Of a stretch of 64,000 bases of DNA, positions 1 to 55,671 are shown in pieces (within the stretch, counting starts at the first letter, position 1; the number at the start of each line of letters is the position of its first letter). The notes below the pieces were generated by a model. The model saw only the letters and a list, made by a program, of their open reading frames with translations. It was not told where the DNA came from and ran no database searches. Position numbers and translations under genes: made by a program. Where the stretch lies: assembly GCF_001888165.1 (NCBI RefSeq), contig NZ_CP015455.1, positions 3,032,001 through 3,096,000 of the forward strand, written 5' to 3'. Origin of the DNA: Syntrophotalea acetylenica (GTDB lineage: Bacteria > Desulfobacterota > Desulfuromonadia > Desulfuromonadales > Syntrophotaleaceae).

Positions 1-693
1 GTTGCCTCGAACTCCGATGTTGACCTCGGTAATTTCCGGATTGCCGTAGGCTTTGGTATTGGCCTCGTCCAGAAGCGCCATGGTGGTAACAGCGAATTCC
101 CCTGCTTTCAGGACCATGGCCACCATGTCATCGGTGGAAAGGTCGCTGGTGGTAGAGGCCAGAGCCTCCATCAAAAAACCGTAAATCTCTTCCTTTTCAT
201 GACCCAGAACAGCCGCATGATCGGCATAGGCTGCAATGCCTTTACAGCCGATGATTAACAGTTCCCGCAAGGAGCGCACATCCTGGTTCTGCGCCGCGGT
301 GATCCGTACCGTTTCGGATTGAGCCTTGGACTGCAGGTCGGACCGGTCCCGCGGCGTCCAGGTGGCACATTCAGGCAGATTGTCGGGCACGTTGTCACCG
401 AGCCTGGACTTGAGACGGCCTCGAACCTCTAGCGCTTCCTCGATGCGAGCAATAATGGCGTCATCGGCCCAGGCTACATTGGTAATGGTCGTGAAAAGAG
501 CCTGACACAAAAAACGTCCCGCATCCTTATCCACAGGGCCCTGCTGTTTCAACGCCTCCGCATAAACCGCAATGCCTTTACAGACAAAAATAAGCAGGTC
601 CTGAAGATCGGCAGTTGTTTCAGGCTTGCCGCAAACACCCTTTATGGTGCAGCCCTGATTTTTTGCCGTTTCCTGACATTGAAAACAAAACAT
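1..693 (-). CDS. hcp: Hybrid cluster protein (hydroxylamine reductase), N-terminal part
   Basis: Partial gene running off the left edge; 231 codons are present of a family usually about 550 residues long. The N-terminus MFCFQCQET carries Cys3, Cys6, Cys15 and Cys21 (CX2CX8CX5C), the spacing of class I Hcp from strict anaerobes, which ligates the proximal Fe-S cubane; the hybrid Fe-S-O cluster ligands lie beyond the window. Family members reduce hydroxylamine and NO and are made under nitrosative or nitrate stress in the cytoplasm. The start has a GGAG ribosome site seven bases upstream. A 23-bp dyad about 80 bp upstream could be an operator. Identification is firm; the physiological substrate is inferred from the family. 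Confidence 0.93.
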   Translation of the reverse strand, partial: MFCFQCQETAKNQGCTIKGVCGKPETTADLQDLLIFVCKGIAVYAEALKQQGPVDKDAGRFLCQALFTTITNVAWADDAIIARIEEALEVRGRLKSRLGDNVPDNLPECATWTPRDRSDLQSKAQSETVRITAAQNQDVRSLRELLIIGCKGIAAYADHAAVLGHEKEEIYGFLMEALASTTSDLSTDDMVAMVLKAGEFAVTTMALLDEANTKAYGNPEITEVNIGVRGN

Positions 694-1391: not shown

Positions 1392-1801
1392 GGCATTCTC
1401 CTTTGAGTTTATGCAGTGTGGTGCTGGCAGAATTTATCTTCAATATTTCCAAGACGTCATCAACACCATCCCGCGCCCCGGGCAATCATTCGCCGCTATA
1501 AACATCACCAGTCAACCACCACTCTCACTCTGCCGGTGGTCGGAATCCGCCGCGAAGAGAAGACAAGGGACTGTTGACAGTCAACGGTTGACAGGGGCTT
1601 GCTGCCATTAAAACTATCAGAATAAAAGCGATAAGCAACCGGTCCAGTGCCATCTCGAAATCGAGTCTCGATGCGTCTTCGAAATCCGTTCCAGAAAAGA
1701 AGATCGGAAAAAACAGAGCGGGAGGATTCCCACGGTACCGTGCGATGTAAACTCGGAAGGTCCTGTATTAAACGGACCCCCTTTCCTTCATTTTAATCAT
1801 A

Positions 1802-6220: not shown

Positions 6221-7627
6221 ATGACTGCGACGAGAATTGAAAAGGATTCCATGGGCACCATGGAAGTTCCCGCGTCGGCCCTCTACGGTGCGCAGACGGC
6301 ACGGGCACTGGTGAATTTCCCCATTTCCGGCCAGCGTTTTTCGCGCCCTTTTATCCGCGCCCTGGGCCTCATCAAACGCTATGCCGCCCAGGCCAATCTG
6401 GAACTGGGCATGCTCGACGAACAACGCGCCAAAGCCATCATGCAGGCCGCCGACGAGGTCATAAACGGCGAACTGGATGAACACTTCGTGCTGGATATCT
6501 TTCAGACCGGATCGGGCACCAGCACCAACATGAATGCCAACGAAGTCATTGCCAACCGCGCCGCGCAGATTCTGGGCAAGGCGGTCGGATCAAGGGCGGT
6601 ACACCCCAACGATCATGTTAACCTCGGCCAGTCGAGCAATGACGTCATCCCGACCGCCATCCACATTGCCACGGCGCTGGAAACCCGCGCCACCCTGGTC
6701 AAGGCACTGTTCAGCATGCAGGAAGCCCTCGGTGAAAAAGCCCTGGCCTTCAACGACATTATCAAAATCGGCCGCACCCACCTGCAGGATGCCACGCCGG
6801 TGCGGCTGGGCCAGGTCTTTTCAGGCTATGCCCGGCAACTGGCGCTGGCCATCCGCAGCATCGAAAACGCCGCAGAGAACCTGCTGGAGCTGGCCCTGGG
6901 CGGCACCGCCGTCGGCACCGGCCTCAACACGCACCCGCGATTCGCCTCTCGCGTCATCGCGGCTATCGCGGACGAAACCGGACTTGCCTTCCGTGAAGCT
7001 AGCAACCACTTCGAGGCTCAGGCAGCCAAGGATGCGCTGGTTGAAGCCAGCGGCGCCCTGAAACGCACCGCCTGCGCCCTGTTCAAGATCGCCAACGACA
7101 TCCGCCTGCTCGGCAGCGGACCGCGCTGCGGCATCGGTGAGCTGTTGCTGCCACCGGTGCAGCCGGGCAGCTCGATCATGCCGGGCAAGGTCAACCCGGT
7201 CATGGCCGAAAGCCTGATGCAGGTCTGCGGTCAGGTGGTCGGCAACGATGCGGCCATCACCCTGGGAGGTTTGTCCGGCAACTTCGAGCTGAATGTCATG
7301 ATGCCCCTCATGGCCCACAACCTGCTGCAATCCATTGCCCTGCTGGCCGCCGCCGCCACCGAGTTCACGAAGCGCTGCCTGACCGGACTGGAAGCCGACC
7401 GCGGGCGTTGCGAATCGCTGGTGGAGCAGAGCCTGGCCATGTGCACGGCGCTGGCCCCGGTCATCGGCTACGACCGGGCGGCGGACATCGCCAAGCAGGC
7501 TTATGCCAGCGGCCGCACGGTGCGGGAAATCGCCATGGAGCAGCAGGTGCTGCCAGAAGAGAAACTGGCCCGCATCCTCGACCCGCGCCCCATGACCGAG
7601 GCAGGCATCCCGGGCAAGACCCGCTGA
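6221..7627 (+). CDS. fumC: Class II fumarate hydratase
   Basis: Interconverts fumarate and malate in the TCA cycle without an Fe-S cluster. 468 residues. Conserved blocks of the fumarase/aspartase superfamily are in order: ALYGAQTARALVNF near 20, GSGTSTNMNANEV near 95, QSSNDVIPTA near 137, GRTHLQDATPV near 185 and the signature GSSIMPGKVNPV near 317. GLSGNFELNVMMP rather than the aspartase-type sequence favours fumarase over aspartate ammonia-lyase. ATG follows TGGAG; an in-frame upstream extension into the HD-domain gene is not real. Monocistronic by context. Confidence 0.92.
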   Translation: MTATRIEKDSMGTMEVPASALYGAQTARALVNFPISGQRFSRPFIRALGLIKRYAAQANLELGMLDEQRAKAIMQAADEVINGELDEHFVLDIFQTGSGTSTNMNANEVIANRAAQILGKAVGSRAVHPNDHVNLGQSSNDVIPTAIHIATALETRATLVKALFSMQEALGEKALAFNDIIKIGRTHLQDATPVRLGQVFSGYARQLALAIRSIENAAENLLELALGGTAVGTGLNTHPRFASRVIAAIADETGLAFREASNHFEAQAAKDALVEASGALKRTACALFKIANDIRLLGSGPRCGIGELLLPPVQPGSSIMPGKVNPVMAESLMQVCGQVVGNDAAITLGGLSGNFELNVMMPLMAHNLLQSIALLAAAATEFTKRCLTGLEADRGRCESLVEQSLAMCTALAPVIGYDRAADIAKQAYASGRTVREIAMEQQVLPEEKLARILDPRPMTEAGIPGKTR

Positions 7628-7829
7628 CCGGTCTTTTCGACCCCACGTCGAGGGCGGCCGCGGCTTTCCTGTCCGGCCGTTCTCGACGCCGCGCCGCAAC
7701 CTGTGGATTGCCTGTGAATCGTCGCGCGCGCGACCTTCGAAAAACCCGCCAAACGCCTTCAATCCGGCACATCAGGCTTTTCAACAGCTGTGGACAGCGC
7801 CGCGGCAAGAGCGGCCGCCTGCCCCCCTG

Positions 7830-8957
7830 TCATGTCGTGATCAGTGCTCCCAGAAGCTGATCGCCGAGAGCTTCCCGCTGCCAGTTTTTGAGAATCCCCA
7901 ACTCACCGAGCTGCGCCGCATTGACCGGGCATTCTTTTGCCAGGGCTTCCAGCTGTGCATTGTTAACCAGAATGCCGGGATCCATGGCAAGCTGGCCGGC
8001 CATGTCGGCACGCACGGTTTTCAGTTTTTTGAGCCGCTCCTCCAGGGCAGGGTCACGCTCACGGCGCTCGCCCCGCGGATAAACCGGCCACTGTTCCCTG
8101 GGCATATCCAGGGCCTTGCCTACCGCCCCCAGCAGCACCCGACCGTAACGCTCCGCCAGCCGGGCCGAAAAGCCTTCGATTCCTTCCGCATCCTGCAGAT
8201 TGCGCGGCAGCCGCTGGGCAAATCCGAGCAGTGTCTTGTTGCCGATGATTTTGAATGGGGGACGGTCGCGGCGGCAGGCTTCCCCGTCGCGCCACTGCAG
8301 CAGCTCCTCCAGCGCGGCGAGTTGCCTGCGATCCAGCAACCCCGCCCCCTTGACCCGTAAAAACAGCGGGCCGCTGTTTTCGGAAGGGCGTACCTGTTCG
8401 AGCAGGGCAAATTCCTCCTCGGCCCAGTTCAGTCGCCCCATCTGCCGCAGCCGCTGTTCGAGGATTGCCGCCAAACGATGCAGATGACAGGTATCCTCCA
8501 TGGCATAGCGGACCATGCCTTCCTCGAGAGGGCGCTGGGACCAGTCGGCACGCTGATAACGCTTGTCCAGATGAATGTCGAGGTGTTTGGCCAGCACGTC
8601 GGCCAGGCCGACACGCTCCTCGCCGAGCATCTGGCTGGCGATCATGGTGTCGAAGAGACCGCGAACCTCCATGCCGAAATCGCGGTACAGGCAGCGAATA
8701 TCGTAATCCGCGGCGTGGAAAATCTTGCCAATGGCGGGATCGGCAAGAACCGGCGCCAAAGGCGACAGGTCTTTTACGGCCAACGGGTCGACCAGCACCG
8801 TCCGCGTCGGGGTGGAGATCTGCAGCAGACAGACCTTTTCCTGGTAGGAATGCAGGGAGTCCGCTTCGAGATCGACGGCTATGACAGGTTCCGACCGCAG
8901 GTCCCGCACCAGCCGGACTATGGCCGCGTCATCCGTCAGGATGGGGGGCAACGACAT
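7830..8957 (-). CDS. rnd: Ribonuclease D
   Basis: 375 residues. DEDD-family 3'-5' exonuclease domain (about 1-175): AVDLEADSLHSYQ (ExoI, DxE), HAADYDIRCL (ExoII), MRYAMED-type ExoIII seen as VRYAMEDTCHLH. An HRDC domain follows (about 205-290, DRRQLAALEELLQWRD) and a second HRDC-like part at the C-terminus. RNase D matures tRNA 3' ends and other stable RNAs. Start MSLPPILTD has AAGGAG seven bases upstream. Convergent with fumC across a 202-bp gap that shows no clear feature. Confidence 0.9.
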   Translation of the reverse strand: MSLPPILTDDAAIVRLVRDLRSEPVIAVDLEADSLHSYQEKVCLLQISTPTRTVLVDPLAVKDLSPLAPVLADPAIGKIFHAADYDIRCLYRDFGMEVRGLFDTMIASQMLGEERVGLADVLAKHLDIHLDKRYQRADWSQRPLEEGMVRYAMEDTCHLHRLAAILEQRLRQMGRLNWAEEEFALLEQVRPSENSGPLFLRVKGAGLLDRRQLAALEELLQWRDGEACRRDRPPFKIIGNKTLLGFAQRLPRNLQDAEGIEGFSARLAERYGRVLLGAVGKALDMPREQWPVYPRGERRERDPALEERLKKLKTVRADMAGQLAMDPGILVNNAQLEALAKECPVNAAQLGELGILKNWQREALGDQLLGALITT

Positions 8958-43652: not shown

Positions 43653-44616
43653 GGCTCTCCTCCCGGGGACCGGTTTGGCTAGCATCGATGCCGCGCCGGC
43701 GGGAAAAGGCGGCACGACTCGAACGCAACAGGGTTATACCGCCGTAAGTCAGGCGCAGGGCATCGTTCTCCGGACAGTGTTCGACACACTCCATGCACAA
43801 AACGCAGTCAGGAAAGGTGACGTCCTCCCGCTGCCTCTCCAGAAACACCTGTTCGATATCCATGGGACAGACGTTATAGCAGATCTCGCAACGGGTACAG
43901 CGGGTCACATCCTTCTTCAGTTTCGGCAGGCTGATACGCCTGAAAAAGGACAGCAGCAAGACCATCGGACAATAGGCACACCAGAAGCGCCGCTTGAAAA
44001 AGGCCCCGACCAATGTGAAACCGGCAAACAGCACCCCAAGAGCACTCAGAACAAAAGTGGTGATACTGCCGAAAGAGACCCCCATATACCCGGCTCTTTC
44101 CGTGAACAGCGGCATTATGTACCGTACCGGGCAGAGTTCGCAGAAAGGGATGCCGAGGTGGCGGGCAACCGCCGGTACCAGCAGCGGAAAAGCGGCCCAC
44201 AAAGGCAGCACAAACAAAATGACAAGAAAGATCCAGCGCAAAGGCCGCAAATTTCTGCGCAGCGTTTCAGGGAAACGCACATAGCCTATGCCCAGCTTGC
44301 GGCGTAGCACATCCAGGACATCCTGAATAAAGGCAAAGGGACAGATCCAGCCGCACCAGGCGCCACCCAAAGGGATGATCAGCAGCACCGCCACCACCAG
44401 AATGGTCAGGGCCGCGAACAGCCCCGCCAGGTTGCCTTCAGCCAGAGCCATCTGCAGGGTTGCAACAAAACAGGCGCCCCCGTAGGTATCGGAGCCCACG
44501 AAATAACAGGCAAAAGTCGGCAGATAGGAACCAAGATGCACCCCCGCAAGGCCACCAAAAGTCAGCAACACAAAAGACAGGGTCAATACCAGCCAGCGCC
44601 AGCGACTCACGGGCAT
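43645..44616 (-). CDS. NapH/NosR-type membrane polyferredoxin
   Basis: 323 residues. About five membrane helices (near 8-28, 60-85, 130-155, 190-215 and a short one) carry two cytoplasmic-edge CxxxCP motifs (CGWICPFAF and CAYCPM, with CELCP), and the C-terminus has two [4Fe-4S] sets CTRCEICYNVCP and CVLCMECVEHCP. These proteins pass electrons between the quinone pool and Fe-S partners. Overlaps both neighbours (10 and 8 bp); it is the obvious electron source for the ATPase/double-cubane pair downstream, which is inference from position. Confidence 0.85.
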   Translation of the reverse strand: MPVSRWRWLVLTLSFVLLTFGGLAGVHLGSYLPTFACYFVGSDTYGGACFVATLQMALAEGNLAGLFAALTILVVAVLLIIPLGGAWCGWICPFAFIQDVLDVLRRKLGIGYVRFPETLRRNLRPLRWIFLVILFVLPLWAAFPLLVPAVARHLGIPFCELCPVRYIMPLFTERAGYMGVSFGSITTFVLSALGVLFAGFTLVGAFFKRRFWCAYCPMVLLLSFFRRISLPKLKKDVTRCTRCEICYNVCPMDIEQVFLERQREDVTFPDCVLCMECVEHCPENDALRLTYGGITLLRSSRAAFSRRRGIDASQTGPREESHE

Positions 44617-45641
44617 GACGCACCTCCCGGCTGTCTTGCCGCTTCGAAACGGGCCAGCTGCAAACGTTGGCGGCGACGGCGGCGCGCAACCAGCAAGGCG
44701 ATAAAACCGGCGGCGAAGGCGGTTCCGGCGAAGGCCCACAACACGAAACTGGTTATGCAGTGGGTCCACTCGGGCCAGGGCGGATCGACAATCATCGGCA
44801 TGCTGGCACAGTGGTATTCTCCACGCTGCCGGTCAAGGTGACGGACCGTGTAAAGGCATATTTCCCAATTATGCTTTGCACCGCGACTTTCATGCGGCAC
44901 CGCCACAAACCGGCCCGCCGCGTCGGTGCGCACCTTATTGCGCCAGCCGCGCTCGGTGAGAGCCGTGACCTCCGCGCCCGCCAGCGGTTTCCCGCGGTAA
45001 AAGACCGCCATCTCGCTGGGCCGGTGGGCAATCTGAATAATGCCGCTGTAACGACCTGCCTGCACCGGCCCGATTTCAAGGGGCATGCGCGGCGAATGGA
45101 AAAAGGTATTCTGCTCCCCGCCGTGGGACAGACTGTCACGCACGTGACGCAGCAGAAACTTGCCGTACAGATGCACCGACTCGACCCGGCCGTCCCCGTC
45201 CACATCCCGGCGTCCCGCCGCGACATGGCTGCCGAGCAGGTAGATGCCCTGCGGGGCGTTTCCGGCGGGTACTTCGCTGACGGTTTTTCCCGGCGCCGCG
45301 CAAAAAGGCCCTTCTTCGATGCCGCCGTCAGGCCTTTGCAGCCAGACGCGGGCCAGTCGCAACAACGCTTCTTCGCCGCGCGACCGCGTACCGGCGGGAA
45401 ATTGCCCGTAGCGCAGCGCCAGACGCCGGGGCTGGCCAAGGCGCTGCCGCAACAGTTCGGCATCGTTTCGGATTTCCCAGATATCGCGATCCGGATCGTT
45501 GTAGCCGTTGATATACCAGCCGGGGTTCTGCAGGTCCCACCACAGCAACAGATCATCCTCCGCCAGCGCGGAATGTGAATCGCAGGCGACCGCCATGACA
45601 AGCAGCAACAGTATTGCCGCATGGTTCAACAGGTGTCTCAT
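44607..45641 (-). CDS. Exported, membrane-anchored protein of unknown function
   Basis: 344 residues. Signal peptide with a Cys (AILLLLVMAVAC), a periplasmic part with WWDLQNPGWYINGY, DVDGDGRVES (calcium-type loop) and a carboxypeptidase-regulatory-like beta domain GKPLAGAEVTALTERGWRNK...DAAGRFVAVPHE (about 220-265, as in DUF4198 proteins), one C-terminal membrane helix near 300-322 and a basic cytosolic tail. DUF4198 relatives are linked with metal or gas uptake, which is only a hint. First gene of the overlapping four-gene operon; AGGA before ATG. Confidence 0.7.
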   Translation of the reverse strand: MRHLLNHAAILLLLVMAVACDSHSALAEDDLLLWWDLQNPGWYINGYNDPDRDIWEIRNDAELLRQRLGQPRRLALRYGQFPAGTRSRGEEALLRLARVWLQRPDGGIEEGPFCAAPGKTVSEVPAGNAPQGIYLLGSHVAAGRRDVDGDGRVESVHLYGKFLLRHVRDSLSHGGEQNTFFHSPRMPLEIGPVQAGRYSGIIQIAHRPSEMAVFYRGKPLAGAEVTALTERGWRNKVRTDAAGRFVAVPHESRGAKHNWEICLYTVRHLDRQRGEYHCASMPMIVDPPWPEWTHCITSFVLWAFAGTAFAAGFIALLVARRRRRQRLQLARFEAARQPGGASCP

Positions 45642-45694
45642 TGTATCCTCGTCATGCCTTTTCTCCGGATCCAGCCCGCCAGCTTCCGACCGGA

Positions 45695-47067
45695 TCAGAG
45701 AGTTGATTTCGAAACAGGTTTGGCGCCACAACCATCGGCGTCATGCCCGGAGCACTCTGCCGGCCGGGGATGACGGCGCCCCCAAAGATAAAACGGTACA
45801 CCGGTCAGGGTCATCAGAACCCCCATAGCGAAGACCATGGCTGGCCGCGGCCGATCTGCACCAGTACCAGCAGATAACTGCCCACGAACAGCAGTGGTAC
45901 CAGGGGGTAGCACGGCGTGCGGTAGGAGCGTGCCAGACCCGGCCGGCGCCAGCGCAGCAACATCAGGGCCACGCCACTGGCGATGGATGTCAGCACCATG
46001 ACGAACACCACGCAGCTCAGCAGCTGACCAAAGGTACCGAACGTCACCAGCAGAATGGCCAGCAGCGCCTGGCAGGCAATAGCCACCGCGGGGGTACGAT
46101 AACCGGCGTGGACACGCCGCAGGGCGCGGCAGACGCCGCCGTTCTCGCCCAGCGCCCAGGCGACGCGCGCGCCGGTCATGACGGTGGCGTTGATCCCGGC
46201 GGCGATCGCCAGCATGATGGGCACGGAGATCCAGCGGGCGGCGCCTGAACCATACAGTCCTTCAAGAGCGAGCTGCCCGACATTCTCCGCCCCGGCCAGT
46301 TCGTGCAGCGGCCGGGCGTAGAGATAGACAAGATTGATAGCCAGATAAAGAACCGTCACACACAAGGTGCCAAGAATCAGGGAACGGGGCAGATTGCGTC
46401 GCGCATCACGGATTTCACCACCGATATAGGCCGACGCAAACCAGCCGCTGAAGGTGAAAATCACCGCGATCATGGGACCGCCGAACAGATGGCTCCAGGC
46501 TATCTTCGGCATCGGTCCCGGAGCGCTCAGCCGGTTCCAGTCGCCGTTGGCGGACAGCAGACCGGCAAGGATCACGACCACCAGCAAAACAATGGTGCCG
46601 AAGGTAAACAGATTCTGAGTGGTCCCCCCCGGGCGGATACCTCGATAATTGATCCAGGAAAACACCAGAATGAAGGCTGCCGCCAGCAGCTTGCCGGAAA
46701 TCGCGCCGAGAATGGGAAGAAACCCCTGCAGGTAGCTGGCCAGAGCGATGGACATGGCGGCGATGGAGCCGGGATTGATCACCCAGACGGCCAGCCACCC
46801 CAGAAGAAAACCGGCCCAGGGCCCGTAGGCGGCCTTGAGGAACTGATAATCGCCGCCGGCCAGCGGAAACATGCCCGCCAGTTCGGCATAAGTCAATGCT
46901 CCGCACAGGGTCAGCAGACCGCCCAACCCCCAGATGCCCAGAAACAGCCAGGGGTGCGAAAGCTGTTCGGCCAGGAAGCCGCTGGTGGTAAAGATCCCGG
47001 CACCGATAACATTGCCGATGATCAGCAGCACCGCATCCGTCAGACTGAGTTGTCGGTTGAGTTGCAC
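45695..47067 (-). CDS. APC-family amino acid permease, C-terminus frameshifted as printed
   Basis: Inner-membrane amino acid transporter. As printed, 417 residues (stop at 45814) with 11 helices; the APC signature VLLIIGNVIGAGIFTTSGFL lies at the N-terminus. The stop falls just before the last expected helix, which continues in another frame (MVFAMGVLMTLTGVPFYLWGRR) to 45695. One extra C in the GGCC run at about 45840-45852 would join them into about 457 residues, normal for the LAT-type subfamily. GTG start with AGGTGA upstream. Separate transcription unit: a terminator lies between it and the next minus-strand operon. Confidence 0.78.
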
Positions 47068-47174
47068 AGGTCACCTGCCTTTTCGGCACCGCGGCGGGGA
47101 AACCCTCCGTCCCGAGGAAGCCCGCTTCGATGGCGGCCGGGCTCGGGCACCCGATGCACCGATATTGTGCCGAT

Positions 47175-47226
47175 AAAAAGGGCAGGCCCCGCCGTGGTTC
47201 GATCGTGAACGGCTCAAGCCTGCCCT
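47175..47226 (-). terminator. Terminator of the TonB/CcsA/ResB/fusion operon
   Basis: AGGGCAGGC and GCCTGCCCT enclose a 30-nt loop with further pairing; TTTTT follows on the minus strand. Confidence 0.7.
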
Positions 47227-47272
47227 GTGTTATGCATCCTGTTCGTCCGAAGTCTTTATCAATCCTGCCGGA

Positions 47273-49075
47273 TCAGGGACACTCGCCGAAGCGCACATCC
47301 AGACGCGGACCCATGTAGATGAGGCCGAGAAATTTTTCCGGATCGGCATTCAGCCGGGTGACCGCGTCCTTGAGCGTGCTGCGCACCAGGCGTTCGCTGC
47401 CGGCAATGCCGGCACTGTAGACCAGATTGACCGGCGTCTCACCGGGATAATAGCGATCGAACAGGGGCCGCATTTCGCTGAATTCCTTCAATCCCATGAA
47501 AATGGCCAGGGTGTCGCCGCTTTTAGCCACGGAAGCCAGCAGTTGCGGATGTTCCTTGAGGCCGCTCGGCACCGTGATGACGATCGAACCACCGGCGCCG
47601 ACATCGCGCTGGATCATGGCGTTGGCTGCATTGAAGGCGCTCAGGGCGGGAATGGTTTCCAGCTGGTCGTCACTGAAAAAGGCCCGGATCCAGCGGGTGC
47701 TGCCGTAGACCATCGGATCGCCCCAGTCGAGAAATGCCACAGTCTGGCCCCGCTCCAGAGCCTGTCGGATTTTGGCCACACCGGCCTCGCGCTGCTGGTT
47801 GCAGAGCCGCTCCGCCTCGGCCGGCGCCAGGTCGGGGTGTTCCTTGCGGAACATGTGCTTGATGAGCTTGAGGGGATCGAACAAGACCGGCTTGCCCTGC
47901 AGGTAGGTGGCGAAGCGCTTGACGATATCCTCCGGGGCCACCACCACGTCGGCTCGGGCCAAAGCGCTTACCGCCTCGAGGGTGACAAGATCGGTATCGC
48001 CGGGGCCGACGCCGATGATGGATATTTTGGGGATTGCTTTAAGATCCACCACCTCGATGCGCTGCACCGCCAGCACGTCCCGGTCATCCACCAGTTCCTC
48101 GGGGACGATCAGCCGGTATCTGCCGCCGCGCTGTCCCAGCAACGGTTTGCCGTTGTCGCTTTCGGCAAGCATGATGCGCCTGCCGGCGTGGGACAAAAAC
48201 AGTTCGCCAAAGGAAAACAGTGCCCGGTACCCGTCCGGCGCGGAAATCATCACGGCCTTGGTCAAGGAGTCATCGACACCGGCTTTTTCCAGGATCCTGA
48301 CCAGGGACACCCCTTTATAGCGGTGCAGGCCGTGGTAACCCATATGCACCCCGACCACTTTCTTGGACATCTCCATGCGCGGATAGTCCCTCAGGTCGGA
48401 CAGCTTCAACTCCCGGGCCACCGCGCCGGTCACCAGAATCTGCCTGGACTCGAGTTTGACGTTGCGATCAACCTTGATGTCCGGATAAAGATCGATGACT
48501 TCGATGCGGGTCACATTTTCCAGATAGCGGTCGGTATAAAAATCGCTGCGAATCACCAGTTTCGGCATCGTCGCTGGCCGTTCGTACTGCTCCAGGGACT
48601 GGCGGTAGATTTCCGGGCCGTGGCATTTCAGGCACCGCTCCTCGCTCATCATGGGTTTTACGGACTGCGCGGCATAGGCGATGGCCACTTCGGCGGCGTT
48701 GCTGTAGTAAACTTCCGCCCACGACAGGACTACCTGCTTGCCGGCGGCATCGGTTACCCGGATAGCCAGGTCGGTTTGCTTGGTAAAGGCCTGATCCTGC
48801 TTGATGATTTCCGCCATGTCCAGAAGGACGCGCAACGGCACGGCCTTGTGCAGATAAACACCGTGAAAACTGCCGTCGCGGCTGACCTCGTTAAGCTGGA
48901 TTTCCACCGACTGGAAACGGGCCAGATCATCCACGGTCAACTTGAGGGGACGCTTCACCTCGCCGGAAATGGTCATGGCCGGCTTGGCAGGCGCGGCCAT
49001 ACTGTCGGCCAGAGCCGGGTTGTTGCCGAAGCACAATGCCATCAGCATGAAAACCGTCGACAGGATGTATTTCAT
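47273..49075 (-). CDS. Exported fusion: sulfite-oxidase-fold-like domains, CxxCH site, tetrapyrrole methylase
   Basis: 600 residues. A Sec signal peptide (MKYILSTVFMLMALCFG, cleavage after ALA near 24) is followed by two repeats of a sulfite-oxidase-type oxidoreductase fold (about 33-165 and 205-325: GEVKRPLKLTVDDLARF, then GAVARELKLSDLRDY). Between them is CLKCH at about 146-150, a c-type heme motif. The C-terminal third (about 345-600) is a tetrapyrrole methylase: IIGVGPGDTDLVTLEAV, LDWGDPMVYGSTRWI and SAFNAANAMIQR. A SAM-dependent fold on an exported protein is very odd; it may bind a tetrapyrrole without catalysis. Overlaps the ResB-like stop (ATGA). Confidence 0.8.
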   Translation of the reverse strand: MKYILSTVFMLMALCFGNNPALADSMAAPAKPAMTISGEVKRPLKLTVDDLARFQSVEIQLNEVSRDGSFHGVYLHKAVPLRVLLDMAEIIKQDQAFTKQTDLAIRVTDAAGKQVVLSWAEVYYSNAAEVAIAYAAQSVKPMMSEERCLKCHGPEIYRQSLEQYERPATMPKLVIRSDFYTDRYLENVTRIEVIDLYPDIKVDRNVKLESRQILVTGAVARELKLSDLRDYPRMEMSKKVVGVHMGYHGLHRYKGVSLVRILEKAGVDDSLTKAVMISAPDGYRALFSFGELFLSHAGRRIMLAESDNGKPLLGQRGGRYRLIVPEELVDDRDVLAVQRIEVVDLKAIPKISIIGVGPGDTDLVTLEAVSALARADVVVAPEDIVKRFATYLQGKPVLFDPLKLIKHMFRKEHPDLAPAEAERLCNQQREAGVAKIRQALERGQTVAFLDWGDPMVYGSTRWIRAFFSDDQLETIPALSAFNAANAMIQRDVGAGGSIVITVPSGLKEHPQLLASVAKSGDTLAIFMGLKEFSEMRPLFDRYYPGETPVNLVYSAGIAGSERLVRSTLKDAVTRLNADPEKFLGLIYMGPRLDVRFGECP

Positions 49076-49839
49076 GATTTCTGTCCTCCATTGCGGATCT
49101 TGCGGATCTGAGGGAAGTACCAGAGCATCAGCAGACACAGCACCGTGTTTCCAAGCAGAATCAGAAGCAGGCCGGGATCCTTCTTGACCATGATTTCCAG
49201 CGGCGGCAAGGTATCGGTACCCGGCTTGCCCGCCATGCCCAGATGCAGGGTATAGCCCTGCCAGTAGACCGGTTCCAGAATGCCGATTCGGCGCTGCTCG
49301 ACTCCGGCATCGCTTTGCAGCTCCAGGATCGCCGTGCATTGCCGCATGACCCCCTGCAGGGCCGGCGCCTGCCAGTAATCGTAATGGCGATCGACAAGAG
49401 TGATCTGCCGATCCCCCACCGCGATCTTTTCCCCCACTACCGCCGGCAGACGCGTCTTGGTGCCGGTAAATTCGGTCAAAGCGTGCCCGCCGACAATGAA
49501 CAGAAAACAGAAGTGCATCAGTGAAGGGGCCAGCAGCAACACGAACATCGCACGCCGGTAACCGCCACGGCGGCTCCAGAGAAAAGTCACGCGCTGCAGA
49601 GTACAGGCCAGGGTATTGGCAAACAGCAGAAACAGCAGACCGAACAGGGTAAAAAGCCACCAGCTGTGCAGATTGCTGCGGGTCAGAAACCAGGTCGGGA
49701 ACAGGGTGCTGTTGAGTTCGCCGAACACGGCCATGTATTTGGCGTAAAAACTGCCGATAAACAGGTTGACGGTGAGCAGCACCAGCAACCACAGCGTGAG
49801 CCGGATACTCGACAGCGCGTTCCATATGCGATCAATCAT
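49072..49839 (-). CDS. ResB-like membrane protein
   Basis: 255 residues. Three N-terminal helices (near 12-35, 60-82, 98-118), a periplasmic beta-rich part (about 120-220: VGEKIAVGDRQITLVDRHYDYW, ILEPVYWQGYTLHLGMAGKPGTD) and one C-terminal helix, the ResB (cytochrome c synthetase, system II) layout but about half the length of full ResB. Family proteins hand heme to apocytochrome together with CcsA. It overlaps the CcsA-like gene (8 bp) and the fusion gene (4 bp). GGAGG before ATG. Confidence 0.78.
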   Translation of the reverse strand: MIDRIWNALSSIRLTLWLLVLLTVNLFIGSFYAKYMAVFGELNSTLFPTWFLTRSNLHSWWLFTLFGLLFLLFANTLACTLQRVTFLWSRRGGYRRAMFVLLLAPSLMHFCFLFIVGGHALTEFTGTKTRLPAVVGEKIAVGDRQITLVDRHYDYWQAPALQGVMRQCTAILELQSDAGVEQRRIGILEPVYWQGYTLHLGMAGKPGTDTLPPLEIMVKKDPGLLLILLGNTVLCLLMLWYFPQIRKIRNGGQKS

Positions 49840-50689
49840 GACCAGCCTCCATCAGTTCGGGATTGCGGCAGGCGTTCGGCTCCGCACCGTGCACCTGCTG
49901 CTGGGCCGTAGCGCGGGCCGCGCCTTTGCCGGAGCCGGCTCCCGGATTGAGTATGGTCAGGTGCGCCGCGATCTGCAGGGCATAGGCGACCACCAGCACC
50001 ACCAGCGCGCCGGTCACGGCCCAGCGGGCCTTGTTGCGCAGGTGGAAAGAGCGGTCGAAGTGCGTATGCAGATAGCCGCAGTACAGACACCAGATAGCGG
50101 CGGACTGCAGATGCCGTTCCCCCCAGTGGAAGGGACCGCCCCACCCCAGATAACTCCAGACCGCGCCGATCACCTGAGCCAGGCTGTAAAGGATGAATCC
50201 CCAGATGGCCAGAAGGTTGAACAGCTGGTCGCCGCCACGAATGCGCAGCTGCCGCCAGGCAAACCAGCCCGCCGCCAGAAAACAACCGATGGCCAGCACC
50301 TCGAAGAAGAAAAACATGGGGGAGGACCAGGTGGCCGTAAAAGGGCCCGGCGGCGGGAGATCGACCGGCAGCGCCAGGGTGACCAGCATCGCCAGGGTCG
50401 CCAGCCAGCTCATGGAAGCCGCGTCCTCCGCACGACCCCGCCACCACAGGAGCAAGCCCAGCGCAGCCAGACACCAGGGCAGGAAATACGCTCCGTTGAA
50501 AACCCCGTCGAGGGAAAATATCCCCCAGCGCCAGCTACTGGCGACCAGGCTGGCGGTGTGCAAGGCGAAGGCGACGCCAAGCAGCCAGCAGCTGCACCTG
50601 TAACGCTTTAAAAGGTAAAAGAGAAGGCTGCCGGCGTAAACGCCGGCAGCCGCATTGAATGACATGATGGAGGTCGTAGCAATGGTCAT
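49832..50689 (-). CDS. CcsA/CcmC-like membrane protein with degenerate WWD motif
   Basis: 285 residues, about eight helices. The tract GWGGPFHWGERHL (near 185-197) sits where CcsA has its tryptophan-rich heme-handling motif WGxxWxWD, followed by the family YLHT motif, but the middle Trp and the Asp are replaced. This suggests a relative that no longer performs ordinary heme ligation or handles another tetrapyrrole. The start has GGAG-N7-ATG. 43 bp after the TonB receptor gene; coupled to the ResB-like gene. Confidence 0.75.
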   Translation of the reverse strand: MTIATTSIMSFNAAAGVYAGSLLFYLLKRYRCSCWLLGVAFALHTASLVASSWRWGIFSLDGVFNGAYFLPWCLAALGLLLWWRGRAEDAASMSWLATLAMLVTLALPVDLPPPGPFTATWSSPMFFFFEVLAIGCFLAAGWFAWRQLRIRGGDQLFNLLAIWGFILYSLAQVIGAVWSYLGWGGPFHWGERHLQSAAIWCLYCGYLHTHFDRSFHLRNKARWAVTGALVVLVVAYALQIAAHLTILNPGAGSGKGAARATAQQQVHGAEPNACRNPELMEAGHD

Positions 50690-50732
50690 GCAGAAACTCC
50701 TTGCGGAGGACAGTCAAACTTGCCGCAATTTA

Positions 50733-52715
50733 TCAGTAAGTAAAAGAAAGTCCCGCCAGGAAATTGCGCCCGGGCATCAATTCGCCACTTTCTTCGTAAT
50801 CACGGTCGGTAAGGTTGGTCACTTCAACAAAGGCCTTGCCGCTGACTCCCCAGAGCTCGCCAAGGGACTGCTCGGCACGGGCATTCAACAGCAGAAAATC
50901 GGTTCCTTTGGTCCATTCATAGGTCCTGCGGGCGACCTCTTTCTCATAGTAGTAGCGATTTACATAGGACAGCTGCGTCGAGACCGCCAGGCCGAAGGGG
51001 AAGCGGTAACGCATGTCGAGGTTGGCGCGGTGACGGGCGCGTTCGGCCAGTTCGCGATCCAGCTCTTCGTCTTCGGTATTGAGATAAGTATAGTTGACCC
51101 CAACCCAGAAGCGCTCGGTGATATCGGCGCCCAGAGAGAATTCCACGCCCAGGATGTTGGCCTTGCCGACGTTGTAGTAGACCCTGTCGTCATACCCGGC
51201 TACGTAATCCCGCACGATCAGGTCCTTGATGTCGTTATAGAAAAAAGCCACCGAGCCGCTGACCGCATCGTTGAAGGCATGACTTACGCCAACTTCATAG
51301 GCGATGGTTTCCTGGGGATCGAGATCCGGATTGCCGCCGACGGATTCACTGAAAAGTTCCTTGAGATGCGGGAAACGGATCTTTTTGCCGACCGAGCCGT
51401 GCAGCATGGTGCTGTCGGTAAGGTTGACGATTACGCCAAGCTGCGGGTTGAAGGCGTCGACGCTGTCAGGTACCGGCTGGCCGCTGGCCTTGCGGGGATC
51501 GAAATAGTCGTAGCTGGCGCCGACCGTGAATGCCAGCCAGTCGCTGACCCTGATTTCATCCTCCACACCGAAGGAGTAGGTGTCGGACTCGTATTCACCG
51601 GCATCTTCCCAGGAGCCACCCGGCGCCAGAATCTCCTCCTGTTTGGTATTGTCCCTCAGATAGCTCACGCCGACTTTGAGAAAGCTCCACTTGCCGAAAT
51701 CCATGAAGGCCTGCAGCTCGCCACCAACGGAGTAGCCGTCATAGCTGGATTTATAAAACCAATCACGGTCATCCCACTCCGTTTCCAGCAGGGTGTCCTT
51801 GTGATCGACGTAAAAGCCGCGCGCCTTGACGCGCAGCATGTCATTGAAGCGGTGTTCGCCGACCAGGCTGATCTGCCATTGGCGCCACTCGTCAAAATAC
51901 CAGCCGTCGGAAGGGATGCCTTTTTCGTTGTCGTGGTAATCGAAGGTGAGGTACAGCTTGGTATCATTGTTCGGCTCAAAGCCGAACTTGGTGTTGAAGG
52001 TATGCTGGAGATAGCCGCTGTCGTCCCGCAGGCCGCCGTCATCCTTGGTGTAGGTGCTGTATTGAGCCGCCCAGTAGTCCTCGTCGTAATCATCGGACAG
52101 GCGCCAGCCGTTGGAATGGCGGTAGGTATAGCCCAACCAGTAGTTGAACTTGCCGGCCGGCCCGCTGACGCTGGCACTGTAACGCTCCGTTCCGTAATCG
52201 CCCCAGGCCCCGGAAACGGTCGCACTTGGCTTGGCGCCCGCTTTTTTGGTGATGATGTTGATAACCCCGCCCATGGTATTGGAACCGTACAGCACCGAGG
52301 ACGCACCTTTGGTGACCGTTATTTTAGCGATTGAATCGACGGGAATCTGGTCGAGGTCGAGGGTCCGGTAGTACTGTTCATGAACCGGCACGCCGTCGAC
52401 CAGCACCTTGACGTCGCTCTGGTCAAAGCCGCGGATGCTCACGTAGTTCTGCGATTTACCCCCTTTTTGCACATCCACGCCCGGCAGCTGCTCAAGGGCC
52501 TCGGCCACGGTCTGCGCACCGCGCTGCTTGATGTCCTCCGCGGTGACTTCGGTGACCGTCGTCGCCAGGTTGACGACCTGCTCCTCGCCGCTGACAATAA
52601 CCTCACCGAGAGTAAACACCTCATCGCTGGCGACCGTTTCCGCCGCCGCCGGGAAAAGCGGCATCAGGCAGACGGATAGCACCCAAGCCGCCATCCAGAC
52701 TCGACTTTTTCTCAT
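50733..52715 (-). CDS. TonB-dependent outer-membrane receptor
   Basis: 660 residues. Signal peptide to about AAA-E27; a TonB-box-like EVIVSGEE near 38; plug domain (about 45-165: AEALEQLPGVDVQKGG, VSIRGFDQSDVKVLVDGVPV, GSNTMGGVINIITKK); then a 22-strand barrel ending in a C-terminal Tyr/Phe strand (FLAGLSFTY). The substrate class (cobalamin, heme, siderophore) cannot be told. First gene of a four-gene cluster with heme-handling proteins, so a tetrapyrrole is a reasonable guess. AAGGAGGAG before ATG. Confidence 0.9.
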   Translation of the reverse strand: MRKSRVWMAAWVLSVCLMPLFPAAAETVASDEVFTLGEVIVSGEEQVVNLATTVTEVTAEDIKQRGAQTVAEALEQLPGVDVQKGGKSQNYVSIRGFDQSDVKVLVDGVPVHEQYYRTLDLDQIPVDSIAKITVTKGASSVLYGSNTMGGVINIITKKAGAKPSATVSGAWGDYGTERYSASVSGPAGKFNYWLGYTYRHSNGWRLSDDYDEDYWAAQYSTYTKDDGGLRDDSGYLQHTFNTKFGFEPNNDTKLYLTFDYHDNEKGIPSDGWYFDEWRQWQISLVGEHRFNDMLRVKARGFYVDHKDTLLETEWDDRDWFYKSSYDGYSVGGELQAFMDFGKWSFLKVGVSYLRDNTKQEEILAPGGSWEDAGEYESDTYSFGVEDEIRVSDWLAFTVGASYDYFDPRKASGQPVPDSVDAFNPQLGVIVNLTDSTMLHGSVGKKIRFPHLKELFSESVGGNPDLDPQETIAYEVGVSHAFNDAVSGSVAFFYNDIKDLIVRDYVAGYDDRVYYNVGKANILGVEFSLGADITERFWVGVNYTYLNTEDEELDRELAERARHRANLDMRYRFPFGLAVSTQLSYVNRYYYEKEVARRTYEWTKGTDFLLLNARAEQSLGELWGVSGKAFVEVTNLTDRDYEESGELMPGRNFLAGLSFTY

Positions 52716-52783
52716 AACTCCTCCTTGTAAGATGCTGAAAATGCTTCAAACGCTTTTCAGTCGAAATGCAGCACATGGAAATA

Positions 52784-52827
52784 TCCCGAGGAACGCTGGC
52801 TCCGCGCCAAGCGACAAATCCCTGGGA
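52784..52827 (-). promoter_or_regulatory. Structured leader candidate upstream of the TonB receptor
   Basis: On the minus strand CGCTTGGC and GCCAGCG form a hairpin enclosed by TCCC-A-GG pairing with CC-TC-GGGA. It lies 70-110 nt before the receptor start, and the leader has no gene. No known riboswitch family was recognised with confidence. The rest of 52716-53207 is AT-rich, with nothing else supported. Confidence 0.3.
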
Positions 52828-53207
52828 GTTAATTTTTGGTTGTCACGGTCAATACATAACGATAAGCATCGATAATGCCAAATCCAACGGTGTCTAACAG
52901 CCAAGGGAGAGAATTCAGATCGTCATAGCATTGAATAAGTCATGAGTGTGGAAGAATGGAAGCAAACCTGCGGCCGCCCCGGGGAGGTGGAGCGACCGCA
53001 AGCCCTCGCAAAAAATCTCCCAGTTCTCGCTGTATAGCAACATGAATAACGCAATACAAGTAAAATTTTTTTAAGTTTAGATCATTTTGCGTTTACAGGC
53101 TCGCCGTATTAACGACCCACCAATTTAAGGTTGTGTGATTTCAGCGCAGGTGTCCGATGGCCGCAACCTGATAGAATGGATCAAAACCCCCGGACCAGGA
53201 GGATGCC

Positions 53208-53564
53208 ATGCCTGACAAACGGTTTTTATGGACGATGGGATTGCTGGCACTGCTATTGCTGGCAAGTGCCTGCGCGGCAGGATCTTCCGCCCGCGCCTTG
53301 CTGCAGGAGGATTACGCCGCCATGAACAACCAGGAATTGCTGATTTACTACGACCAGCTCAACGCCGCGATCGCGAAACAGGAAGGCGGCGCGGGCGGTT
53401 TCGGCTTTGGGGTGGGGCTGGGAGTGGGCAGCGGCTCCTTCTCGGTGGGAGCCAGCCAGGGAACCTACATTGAAGATCCGACGGAGGCCCTGCGCCAGCA
53501 GCGCAACCGGGTGCGGCTCGAACTGGCGCGACGGGGGCTGCAACCGGCGGATTCCACGCCCTGA
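53208..53564 (+). CDS. Small lipoprotein with Gly-rich segment
   Basis: 118 residues. Lipobox LASAC with Cys22 after a hydrophobic signal ([16 protein letters not shown]), then a helical stretch ([20 protein letters not shown]) and a Gly-rich run ([19 protein letters not shown]), ending in a short charged helix. AGGAGG seven bases before the ATG. Probably anchored in the outer membrane. No family recognised. Plus strand; its tail lies opposite the printed (frameshifted) end of the EF-G frame. Confidence 0.72.
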
Positions 53565-53605
53565 CCGGTATGGGCCACGGCGAATCCTGAAAACCGGGGG
53601 CCTTT

Positions 53606-55671
53606 TCAGCCAAGGCCGAAGAGTTTCTGGATCTCCTCGGGGGCCTGATCGTAATGGGAGAATTCCATGACAAAGGTGCCCCGCCCCGGGTAACGCCACG
53701 CAACTCGCCCATATAATCGAACAGTTCGGACAAGGGAACCCGGCCCTGGATCAGTTCGGATTCGGCCCGCGGTTCGAGGCCGTCGATGCGGCCGCGCTTC
53801 TGCTGCAGGGAGCTGATGACCTGGCCGGCGCACTCGGCGGGCACCGTCAACTCCAGCGCCATGACCGGTTCGAGCAACATCAGCCGGGCCTGTTCAGCAG
53901 CCAGGCTCAGACCGCGCTGAGCGGCGGCCCGCAGGCCGATTTCGGTGGTGATGCCTGGCTGATAGGGCGCCTCGGTCACCGTCACCTCGACGTCGGTCAA
54001 CGGATAGCCGGTACGCAGGCCTGTCGCACAGGCCTGCAGCAGACATTTGCGCAATTCCTCCCCCAAAAGCCCGGGCAGGGCGTCGCCTCCTTCCGGCAAA
54101 ACAACCCGCGCCCCCTTGCCGCGCTGCAGCGGCGCGATTTCCAGAGTGACATCGCCCGACTGCACCCGCCCTTCGGTTTCCCGATGAAATGTTTCGTGAT
54201 GCCGCGCCCTGCCGCGAACGGTTTCGCGATAAACCACCTGCGGACGGCCGGTACGCACCTCGACGCCGAATTCCCGCCGCAGGCGGTCGGTAATGATTTC
54301 AAGATGCAGCTGTCCCATGCCGGTAAGAATGGTCTGGCCGGTATCGGCATCCTCCCGTACCCGGAAGGTCGGATCCTCCCATAGCAATTTTTCCAGAGCG
54401 GCCGGCAGCCTGTCCCGATCGTCAACACGACAGGGTTCCACGGCCAGCGACACCACCGGCTCCGGAATACGCAGCCCCTCCAGTTGCAAGGGCTGTTCCG
54501 CGCGGCACAGGGTATCGCCGGTCAGGGCGTGCTTGAGACCCACCGCCGCCCCGATGTCGCCGGCCTGAATCTCCTCGATCCGTTCGCGTTTGTGGGCGTG
54601 CATGCGAAACAGCCGGGCCACCTTCTCGGGTACCCGGCGGGTGCCGTTGAACAGATCGTCTCCGGCATGCACGGTCCCGGAATAAACCCGGACATAGGTC
54701 AGCTTGCGGCCCTCGTCGGACAAGACCTTGAAAGCCATGGCACAGACCGGCCCAGCGGGATCACAGGGCAGCGGTATCCCGGCATCCTCCCCATCCAGCG
54801 AGCGGGCCGTCACCGGAGGAACATCGAGGGGTGAAGGTAGATAGTCGACAACGGCATCGAGAATCGGCTGAATCCCTTTGTTGCGCAGTGCCGAACCGAG
54901 GAATACGGGAAACAGGCGACAGGCAAGGGTGCCAAGGCGCAGGGCACTTCGCAGGCGTTCGGCGGAGATTGGCCGCCCCTCGAGGAAATCGGCCAGTATT
55001 GCCTCGTCGAAATCGGCGGCGGCTTCCACAACCCGTTCGCGGGCCCTGTCCGCCTCCTCGCGCAACGCTGCGGGAATAGCGGAAACCTCCATCGTAACCC
55101 CGAGATCGGCTTCAGTGAAAATGAGACAGCGCTCCTCCAGCAGATCGACGACCCCGGCGAATTCGCCCTCCAGCCCCAAAGGCAGCTGCATCAGCACCGG
55201 CTGGGCGGCAAAACGCTTGCGCACCTGGTCGAGCACCCGCCGGTGGTCACAGCCTACGCGATCCATCTTGTTGATCATGCAGATGCGCGGCACCGCATAG
55301 CGGTCGGCCTGGCGCCATACCGATTCGGTCTGGGCCTGCACTCCCTCGACGGCACTGAAAATCACCAATGCCCCGTCGAGCACCCGCAACGATCGTTCAA
55401 CTTCGATGGTAAAGTCGATATGACCGGGAGTATCGACAAGATTGATCCGCACATCCCGCCAGTAGCAACAGGTCGTGGTGGCGGTGATGGTTATGCCGCG
55501 CTCCTGCTCCTGCTGCATCCAGTCCATGATAGCCGTACCGTCATGCACTTCGCCGAGACGATGACTTTCACCGGTATAAAACAGAATCCGTTCGGAAACG
55601 GTGGTCTTGCCGGCATCGATGTGGGAGATGATTCCCATGTTGCGCAGGTTCTGGAGTTTTTGCCGGGCCAT
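53606..55671 (-). CDS. fusA: Elongation factor G (paralogue), C-terminus frameshifted as printed
   Basis: Ribosomal translocation GTPase. G1 [10 protein letters not shown]2 [10 protein letters not shown]3 DTPGHIDF and G4 NKMD are all present, then domains II-V, totalling about 688 residues. In the last domain the frame GELRGVTR changes: as printed it runs on to 53359 with a Pro/Arg-rich non-EF-G tail, whereas the next frame continues [20 protein letters not shown] to a stop at 53606, the normal EF-G end. One extra base in CCCCGGG at 53684-53690 restores it. No rpsL/rpsG or tuf neighbours, so this may be the second EF-G. Start after GAGGTG. Confidence 0.85.

Follow-up and report, generated by a model that had tools for sequence, protein, structure and literature searches.

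A conserved TonB receptor operon of Syntrophotalea acetylenica as a probable acquisition system for molybdenum and/or tungsten

The 64,000-nucleotide stretch of Syntrophotalea acetylenica DNA analysed here (contig NZ_CP015455.1, positions 3,032,001 to 3,096,000; hereafter the window) contains, at 47273-52715, four genes that were read from the sequence on the minus strand (Table). They encode a TonB-dependent receptor, a CcsA-like and a ResB-like membrane protein, and an exported fusion of sulfite-oxidase (SUOX)-fold domains with a tetrapyrrole methylase (TP-methylase) domain. The original prediction, made from the letters alone, took this set for a possible tetrapyrrole uptake or handling system; we conclude that the operon probably serves the TonB-dependent acquisition of molybdenum and/or tungsten (Mo/W). 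The coordinates bear out four same-strand genes, three of them overlapping: ccsA and resB share 8 nt, resB and the fusion gene share 4 nt, and 43 nt separate the receptor gene from ccsA. The ATG start codon of the fusion is preceded by GGAGGA. The terminator that had been placed at the end of the set was not confirmed. A single candidate, a 5-bp stem (47193-47181), was found in the interval from the fusion to the next gene, in a scan that returned 13 sites versus 7.5 in shuffles, and a same-strand APC permease gene lies close by in the window, as it does within 6.5 kb in 16 of the 33 loci described below.

Table. Features of the operon and its surroundings (window coordinates).
Feature	Position	Strand	Description and basis
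ModE-type box CGTTATTCATGTTGCTATACAGCG	53028..53051	-	overlaps -10-like TATACA (by eye); single match in 64 kb
Conserved leader hairpin	52964..53005	-	RNAalifold, 4 genomes of the genus
TonB-dependent outer-membrane receptor	50733..52715	-	660 aa, first gene of the operon; Pfam Plug and TonB_dep_Rec_b-barrel
Divergent CcsA-like membrane protein	49832..50689	-	285 aa, WWD loop altered; Cytochrom_C_asm 32 bits
Divergent short ResB-like membrane protein	49072..49839	-	255 aa, no Pfam match; relatives and alignment
Exported fusion	47273..49075	-	600 aa; signal peptide, two SUOX-fold domains with CxxCH, TP-methylase domain
SUOX-fold domain 1 (residues ~31-200)	48476..48985	-	AlphaFold2 model; fold matches to sulfite dehydrogenases
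CLKCH (residues 148-152), in SUOX-fold domain 1	48620-48634	-	sequence motif
SUOX-fold domain 2 (residues 209-346), PruR-like, without Mo-ligand Cys	48038..48451	-	Pfam Oxidored_molyb; VIA-align
TP-methylase domain (residues 349-594), CbiF-like	47294..48031	-	PF00590; solved relatives
APC-family amino-acid permease, probable distal member	45814..47067	-	Pfam AA_permease_2

When the fusion was searched against 297 genomes of the phylum, matches were found in 37 at E <= 1e-20; a search of 136 genomes of the order gave matches in 17 at E <= 1e-15. Both counts include the own genome and mix SUOX-bearing with TP-methylase-only proteins. SUOX-bearing genomes number 36 in all, the own genome counted once, and omission of G113, G324 and G070, which have only fragments, left 33 loci. 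In 30 of these the SUOX gene has a same-strand TonB receptor gene no more than 6.5 kb away; of the others, L088 and L089 end at a contig edge and the 9.5-kb contig of L077 contains no receptor gene. CcsA-like genes are present in 26 loci, ResB-like genes in 25, ExbB in 12, and ExbD and TonB in 11 each. The gene order is not due to chance, as it recurs throughout the order and, less strictly, in the phylum, and the four genes are a conserved module. The original prediction had held that they belong together, and had named a cytoplasmic fusion product or random neighbourhoods of its homologues as grounds against itself; computation found neither. The genome survey of co-occurrence that it had asked for gives TonB, CcsA and ResB neighbours in most of the 33 loci; in genus g215 the operon consists of receptor, CcsA, ResB and a SUOX protein without the TP-methylase domain. 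Several genomes of family f1 carry a second, tandem fusion that lacks CxxCH. One locus (L072, in G224) has three genes of the SUOX/TP-methylase family in 12 kb, alongside genes for two DUF364 proteins, an FmdE protein, a methyltransferase-like protein and components of a TonB system.

Every feature that had been described for the fusion was found again, namely the signal, two SUOX-fold regions, CxxCH and a TP-methylase domain with the S-adenosylmethionine (SAM) loop GVGPGDTDL. In the Pfam scan TP_methylase (PF00590) scores 135 bits against a gathering threshold of 27.8 and Oxidored_molyb scores 51 bits; the fusion is the sole match to PF00174 in its genome. The N-terminus is signal-like, with a maximum 12-residue hydropathy of 2.46 at residue 4, and a hydrophobic N-terminal segment is present in 44 of 46 family proteins in one set (from which L077_7977, L076_10391 and L095_6064, fragments or cytoplasmic controls, had been removed beforehand) and in 19 of 20 in another. 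Export of the methylase-like domain is thus predicted across the family, as originally proposed.

The AlphaFold2 model of the SUOX part (residues 31-346) has a pLDDT of 78 and a pTM of 0.78, and all 18 Foldseek matches to it at E <= 0.001 are SUOX-fold proteins. The model of the whole fusion, built from 7 sequences, was poor (pLDDT 61, pTM 0.32) and was kept out of the fold searches. With VIA-align, where rows with Z < 8 were taken as common topology, the SUOX model aligns with PruR (7rkb; Z 14.8, rmsd 2.5, 124 residues) and, in a tie, with chicken sulfite oxidase (3hbg; Z 15.1, rmsd 3.7, 142 residues). Sequence profiles match solved structures weakly (SorA, E 0.026); in this weak match a Val is aligned to the Cys of SorA NQCSGN, and no conserved column holds a Cys outside CxxCH. 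The fusion therefore lacks the Mo-ligating Cys that defines molybdenum-cofactor (Moco) enzymes of the sulfite oxidase family. As modelled, the SUOX part is like PruR, described in the available portion of PMC13259868 as a periplasmic pterin-binding protein without the Mo-ligand Cys. Both are exported SUOX folds without this Cys (PruR: PDB 7kos, 7kom, 7rkb). PruR is a single domain of ~170 aa, whereas the fusion has two SUOX domains, CxxCH and a TP-methylase domain, and its operon has a TonB receptor instead of DcpA. The CxxCH is present in the window and retained by 28 of 37 aligned relatives, and it is from this motif only that we infer a c-type heme on the fusion.

The closest solved relatives of the TP-methylase domain are CbiF/CobM (4e16, 2cbf, 1cbf), the precorrin-4 C11-methyltransferases, with which it shares fold and motifs. 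All 25 aligned domains match the CbiF model; since the window domain scores 77-81 bits, 80.9 in this comparison, versus an equivalog cut-off of 259.65, it is a relative of CbiF and not CbiF itself. In addition, the domain is fused and follows a signal peptide, whereas CbiF/CobM is cytoplasmic. The profile check of the SAM site that had been proposed found the GxGPGD, GDP, TPV and IYxG stretches to be mostly intact across 25 SUOX-linked domains and 11 SUOX-less ones, and the domain therefore likely binds some ligand at this site. The retained motifs, and an APC permease that adjoins both the SUOX-linked and the SUOX-less versions, would also suit an exported enzyme that methylates its ligand with SAM supplied through the permease. 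However, we know of no periplasmic SAM pool, and the SUOX-only operons of g215 do without the domain altogether, so that periplasmic methylation appears very improbable.

The first gene product has the plug (PF07715, 104 bits) and barrel (PF00593, 150 bits) of a TonB-dependent receptor. It also matches the models for hemin and B12 receptors, with scores under the cut-offs. The CcsA-like protein is barely above the Cytochrom_C_asm cut-off (32 versus 29.9 bits), reaches 36-37 bits with the CcsB model TIGR03144 versus a cut-off of 187.6, and, as had been noticed, has a changed WWD loop, which reads GWGGPFHWGERH in the alignment. The 255-aa ResB-like protein has no ResB domain match in the Pfam scan. 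The two proteins are thus distant relatives of System II CcsA/ResB that fall short of it in model score, WWD motif and ResB length; conserved His residues are retained in the alignment. A canonical maturation pair is encoded elsewhere in the genome (ResB 248 bits, CcsA 290 bits). Judged by these scores and motifs, the operon's pair is not the genome's cytochrome maturation pair, in line with the original view that the set serves uptake rather than cytochrome maturation. A specialised set that matures the fusion's own CxxCH would explain why CcsA/ResB relatives adjoin a CxxCH protein. The association is broken in both directions, with CcsA/ResB but no CxxCH in L067, L071 and L077, and CxxCH but no pair in the locus in L062, L063 and L075; given also the canonical pair elsewhere in the genome, this explanation is extremely improbable.

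The Mo/W assignment draws first on the region upstream of the operon, whose alignment revealed a conserved inverted repeat across a -10-like TATACA. The corresponding box, CGYTATN9TATANARCG, occurs upstream of the operon, once per locus, in 12 of the 12 Desulfuromonadales genomes with a long enough locus, and nowhere else in the loci scanned. There were no matches in 100 shuffles of the window or in 3.75 Mb of first-order resampled loci. The ModE consensus given in the available part of PMC545781, atCGnTATATA-N6-TATATAnCGat, which includes the Geobacter modDABC site, is fitted by the operon box with the same spacing; by eye, the window box agrees with 13 of its 16 fixed positions. With one mismatch allowed, 10 places were found in the own genome versus 1 in the reversed control. 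One of these is at the operon, and another, palindromic and with one mismatch, stands ~85 nt ahead of a WtpA gene (457 versus a cut-off of 355 bits), which is followed by a gene for a WtpB-like permease (296 versus 340 bits). Two further near-boxes precede a DUF364 gene (L117) by ~210 nt and a different TonB receptor gene by ~100 nt. The latter gene (G000:C1 ~720814-725310; L121 4815-9310) is split in two frames, and a fused ECF-type double ATPase and an EcfT-like protein are encoded after it.

The own genome encodes a ModE-like protein (G000:C1:2642670-2642930, in a 285-aa frame; 98.8 versus 98.5 bits), and ModE-like genes are present in 19 of 19 genomes of family f1 and genus g215 and in 35 of 42 over all genomes searched. 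Among the 19 distant SUOX-bearing loci (L062-L080; 268,535 bp), palindromes of the E. coli ModE type with <= 3 mismatches were found twice, versus 0.30 expected by resampling, both within ~110 nt upstream of the operon (L065, L079). At 4 mismatches there were 10 versus 4.3 expected; these, the one in L071 included, were taken as noise. Desulfovibrio-type sites matched the distant loci only with 3-4 mismatches and were not used.

In the sister genus g202 a Moco riboswitch (RF01055) precedes the receptor gene in all 3 testable genomes, with 63.2, 67.9 and 69.2 bits versus a cut-off of 36; by eye, a hairpin and T run resembling a terminator come next. L035, whose riboswitch alignment is the sole one inspected, lacks the P3 stem; in the available part of PMC2408646, RNAs lacking P3 are linked to tungsten-cofactor genes. 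In the window's own leader, ~300 nt long, the ModE-type box is closely followed by a strong hairpin, with 5 pairs showing two-sided changes and a small covariation term (-0.19). Elsewhere in the own genome there are three Moco riboswitches (G000:C1 579313, 2638509 and 2934544; L123, L124 and L125) that precede genes of aldehyde:ferredoxin-oxidoreductase type, two of the three named by eye; the gene in L125 seems to be split and is followed by a TonB receptor gene.

Genes for Mo/W transport accompany the operon in several genomes. G184 has a WtpA gene (421 versus 355 bits) between the SUOX and TonB genes on the same strand. The operon of G254 is flanked by genes for TupA-like (249.5 versus 400 bits) and TupB-like (150 versus 320) proteins and an ABC ATPase, as well as by two ModE-like genes (74 and 76 versus 98.5 bits). 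Divergent TupA-TupB-TupC-like genes are found in G192 (TupA 259 versus 400) and a downstream TupA-like gene in G132 (116 versus 400); the Tup-like genes of these three genomes are all under the equivalog cut-offs. Within the order, a weak relative of WtpA (5e-8) is encoded downstream in L089.

Taken together, the predicted control elements and the neighbouring genes indicate Mo/W and not a tetrapyrrole. Uptake or sorting of a corrinoid, heme or F430, as originally proposed, would be in keeping with the CbiF-like domain, with the handling of heme by CcsA/ResB relatives, with the sub-threshold hemin and B12 receptor scores, and with CbiM genes, one of them same-strand, in two of the 28 sister loci that have no SUOX part. 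A cobalamin riboswitch was not found upstream of the operon in the window or in 36 loci (Rfam scans, run without L091, L093, L096, L100 and L135-L154); two cobalamin-type riboswitches in L090 (G332) lie at its far end, at 1-165 (-) and 1480-1627 (+). Because of the ModE-type boxes, the Moco riboswitch and the WtpA, TupABC-like and ModE-like neighbours, we regard a tetrapyrrole cargo as unlikely.

Several observations weigh against the Mo/W assignment. Among solved structures the receptor comes closest to the colicin I receptor and BtuB, which do not name its cargo. The strict box is absent from all 19 distant loci, where TupA, TupB or WtpA relatives occur in just 4 and ModE-like genes in 1, and no ModE match was found in six SUOX-bearing genomes (G260, G253, G107, G194, G008, G046). 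Six of the 10 near-box places in the own genome have no shown Mo/W link (three were examined: L118, L120 and L122). The window's genus lacks RF01055 (window 44000-54000, no match to E 1). Finally, CxxCH is absent from 9 of the 37 relatives and its presence does not track CcsA/ResB. Mo/W acquisition is nevertheless backed by several independent lines.

From the computed features (the operon, its conservation, export signals, ModE-type boxes, riboswitches, neighbouring Mo/W transporter genes and SUOX fold) we infer a cargo, ModE binding, heme attachment, an electron path and a release step as follows. Under Mo/W scarcity ModE would leave the promoter site and the operon would be expressed; in g202 a Moco/tungsten-cofactor riboswitch would provide a second control. 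The receptor would draw a Mo/W complex across the outer membrane, and the exported protein would capture it in the periplasm, with the PruR-like SUOX domains and the CbiF-like domain as binding or processing modules. The c-type heme of the fusion may give redox-assisted release, perhaps served by the CcsA/ResB-like pair, and the heme and the pair may supply the electrons. The freed oxyanion would then pass to WtpA or TupA of WtpABC or TupABC. The metal in the cargo may be complexed by a pterin or by a ligand similar to a tetrapyrrole.

Two more specific forms of Mo/W acquisition can be considered. In one, the receptor takes up a Mo/W metallophore, own or foreign (for example a catecholate), and the periplasmic protein strips off the metal. 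Catecholate complexes of Mo are found in Azotobacter, and the colicin I receptor is among the best solved relatives of the receptor. No synthesis genes were recognised in the loci, which are partly annotated only; we see the metallophore as a possible form, short of a probable one. The TonB receptor in the Azotobacter Mo gene cluster, called 'potentially for molybdate' in the available part of PMC4465626, would also fit it. In the other form, extracellular molybdopterin or tungstopterin, or a breakdown product, is salvaged, and the PruR-like SUOX domains bind it intact (for a review of periplasmic pterins and PruR, see the available text of PMC13259868). The SUOX fold is closest to pterin-binding PruR and to Moco enzymes, the g202 operon is preceded by a Moco riboswitch, and L073 encodes a FecCD permease without a TupA or WtpA relative. 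However, the WtpA- and TupABC-type partners transport oxyanions, oxyanion uptake would equally fit repression by Mo/W, and Moco is labile outside proteins, which leaves pterin salvage rather doubtful.

Exported TP-methylases also occur without SUOX domains. We analysed 28 such loci, some sharing a genome, and left out eight matches (in G227, G065, G253, G159, G282, G323, G332 and G331). A signal-like segment is present on the TP-methylase in 27 of the 28, with a TonB receptor in 21, DUF4198 in 15, an APC permease in 11, CbiM in 2 (one on the opposite strand), TupA in 1 and ModE in none. L081 has a same-strand CbiM-CbiQ-CbiO set. In L135 (2413-3975) both queries match one 520-aa frame (2e-57, 2e-61), a DUF4198-TP-methylase fusion that parallels the SUOX fusion. 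The sole tungsten link among the sister loci is in L150 (G033; 7056-8881), where the exported TP-methylase-only gene adjoins a TupA-like gene. In the window, a DUF4198-like protein with a C-terminal membrane segment (44607-45731, minus strand; E 0.001, below the cut-off) is encoded 3' of the APC permease and resembles the DUF4198 partner of the sister loci. The best NikR boxes in 8 SUOX-less loci had 3 mismatches, and a cobalt/nickel reading of this branch therefore rests on CbiM and DUF4198. The distribution suggests a periplasmic TP-methylase module common to TonB systems, whose partner modules vary with the metal. With little confidence, we extend this to a phylum-wide scheme in which TonB metal systems have recruited a periplasmic CbiF-type fold to bind or process a metal chelate, with exchangeable partners (SUOX-heme for Mo/W, DUF4198 for cobalt/nickel); the Mo/W cargo would be an organic pterin-type complex, that is, Mo/W cofactor would be salvaged from the surroundings.

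Among known systems, the operon is like other TonB-dependent uptake of scarce metals in that the receptor is under metal-type control, ExbB/ExbD/TonB genes are present in 11-12 of the 33 loci, and an inner-membrane ABC transporter is encoded nearby in some. Such systems are FrpB4, FecA3 and CntO for nickel (as cited in PMC11247825), MnoT for manganese and OprC for copper (PMC8602904). The operon differs from these in its metal, Mo/W, and in its SUOX-cytochrome-TP-methylase protein and CcsA/ResB-like pair, which the accessible sections of these sources do not mention for them. WtpABC, TupABC and ModABC with the ModE regulon share the type of control element and gene company, but act at the inner membrane; the operon adds a TonB receptor, and none is named for the ModE regulon in the available text of PMC545781. 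Nor is a TonB receptor linked to Mo/W in the parts at hand of PMC2408646, PMC5317091, PMC4275255 and PMC12226641; those of PMC11658791 contain no molybd or tungst terms, and those of PMC6147048 no TonB or outer membrane terms.

Two precedents were found. The Azotobacter cluster, by annotation only, has a TonB receptor gene beside ABC transporter, modE/G and modABC genes; it is likened here by description and not by sequence, and no SUOX, TP-methylase or CcsA/ResB partner is mentioned in the available text. Pseudomonas aeruginosa acquires molybdate at the outer membrane through a secreted ModA and its outer-membrane partner IcmP (PMC11734730, PMC8602904, in the accessible sections), a route that differs in the type VI secretion of ModA and in the metalloproteinase-type outer-membrane protein. 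For exported TP-methylases in TonB operons no report was found in literature listings, where 'tetrapyrrole methylase' and 'TonB' occurred together only in a Porphyromonas stress paper.

Annotation would tend to label exported TP-methylase-like proteins as B12-synthesis enzymes, and the operon gives a first testable setting for them. The crossing of the outer membrane by Mo and W is mostly left to porins. If the assignment is correct, a regulated and conserved TonB-dependent module for Mo/W would add a new entry to bacterial metal nutrition, and would be of relevance to anaerobes that use tungsten.

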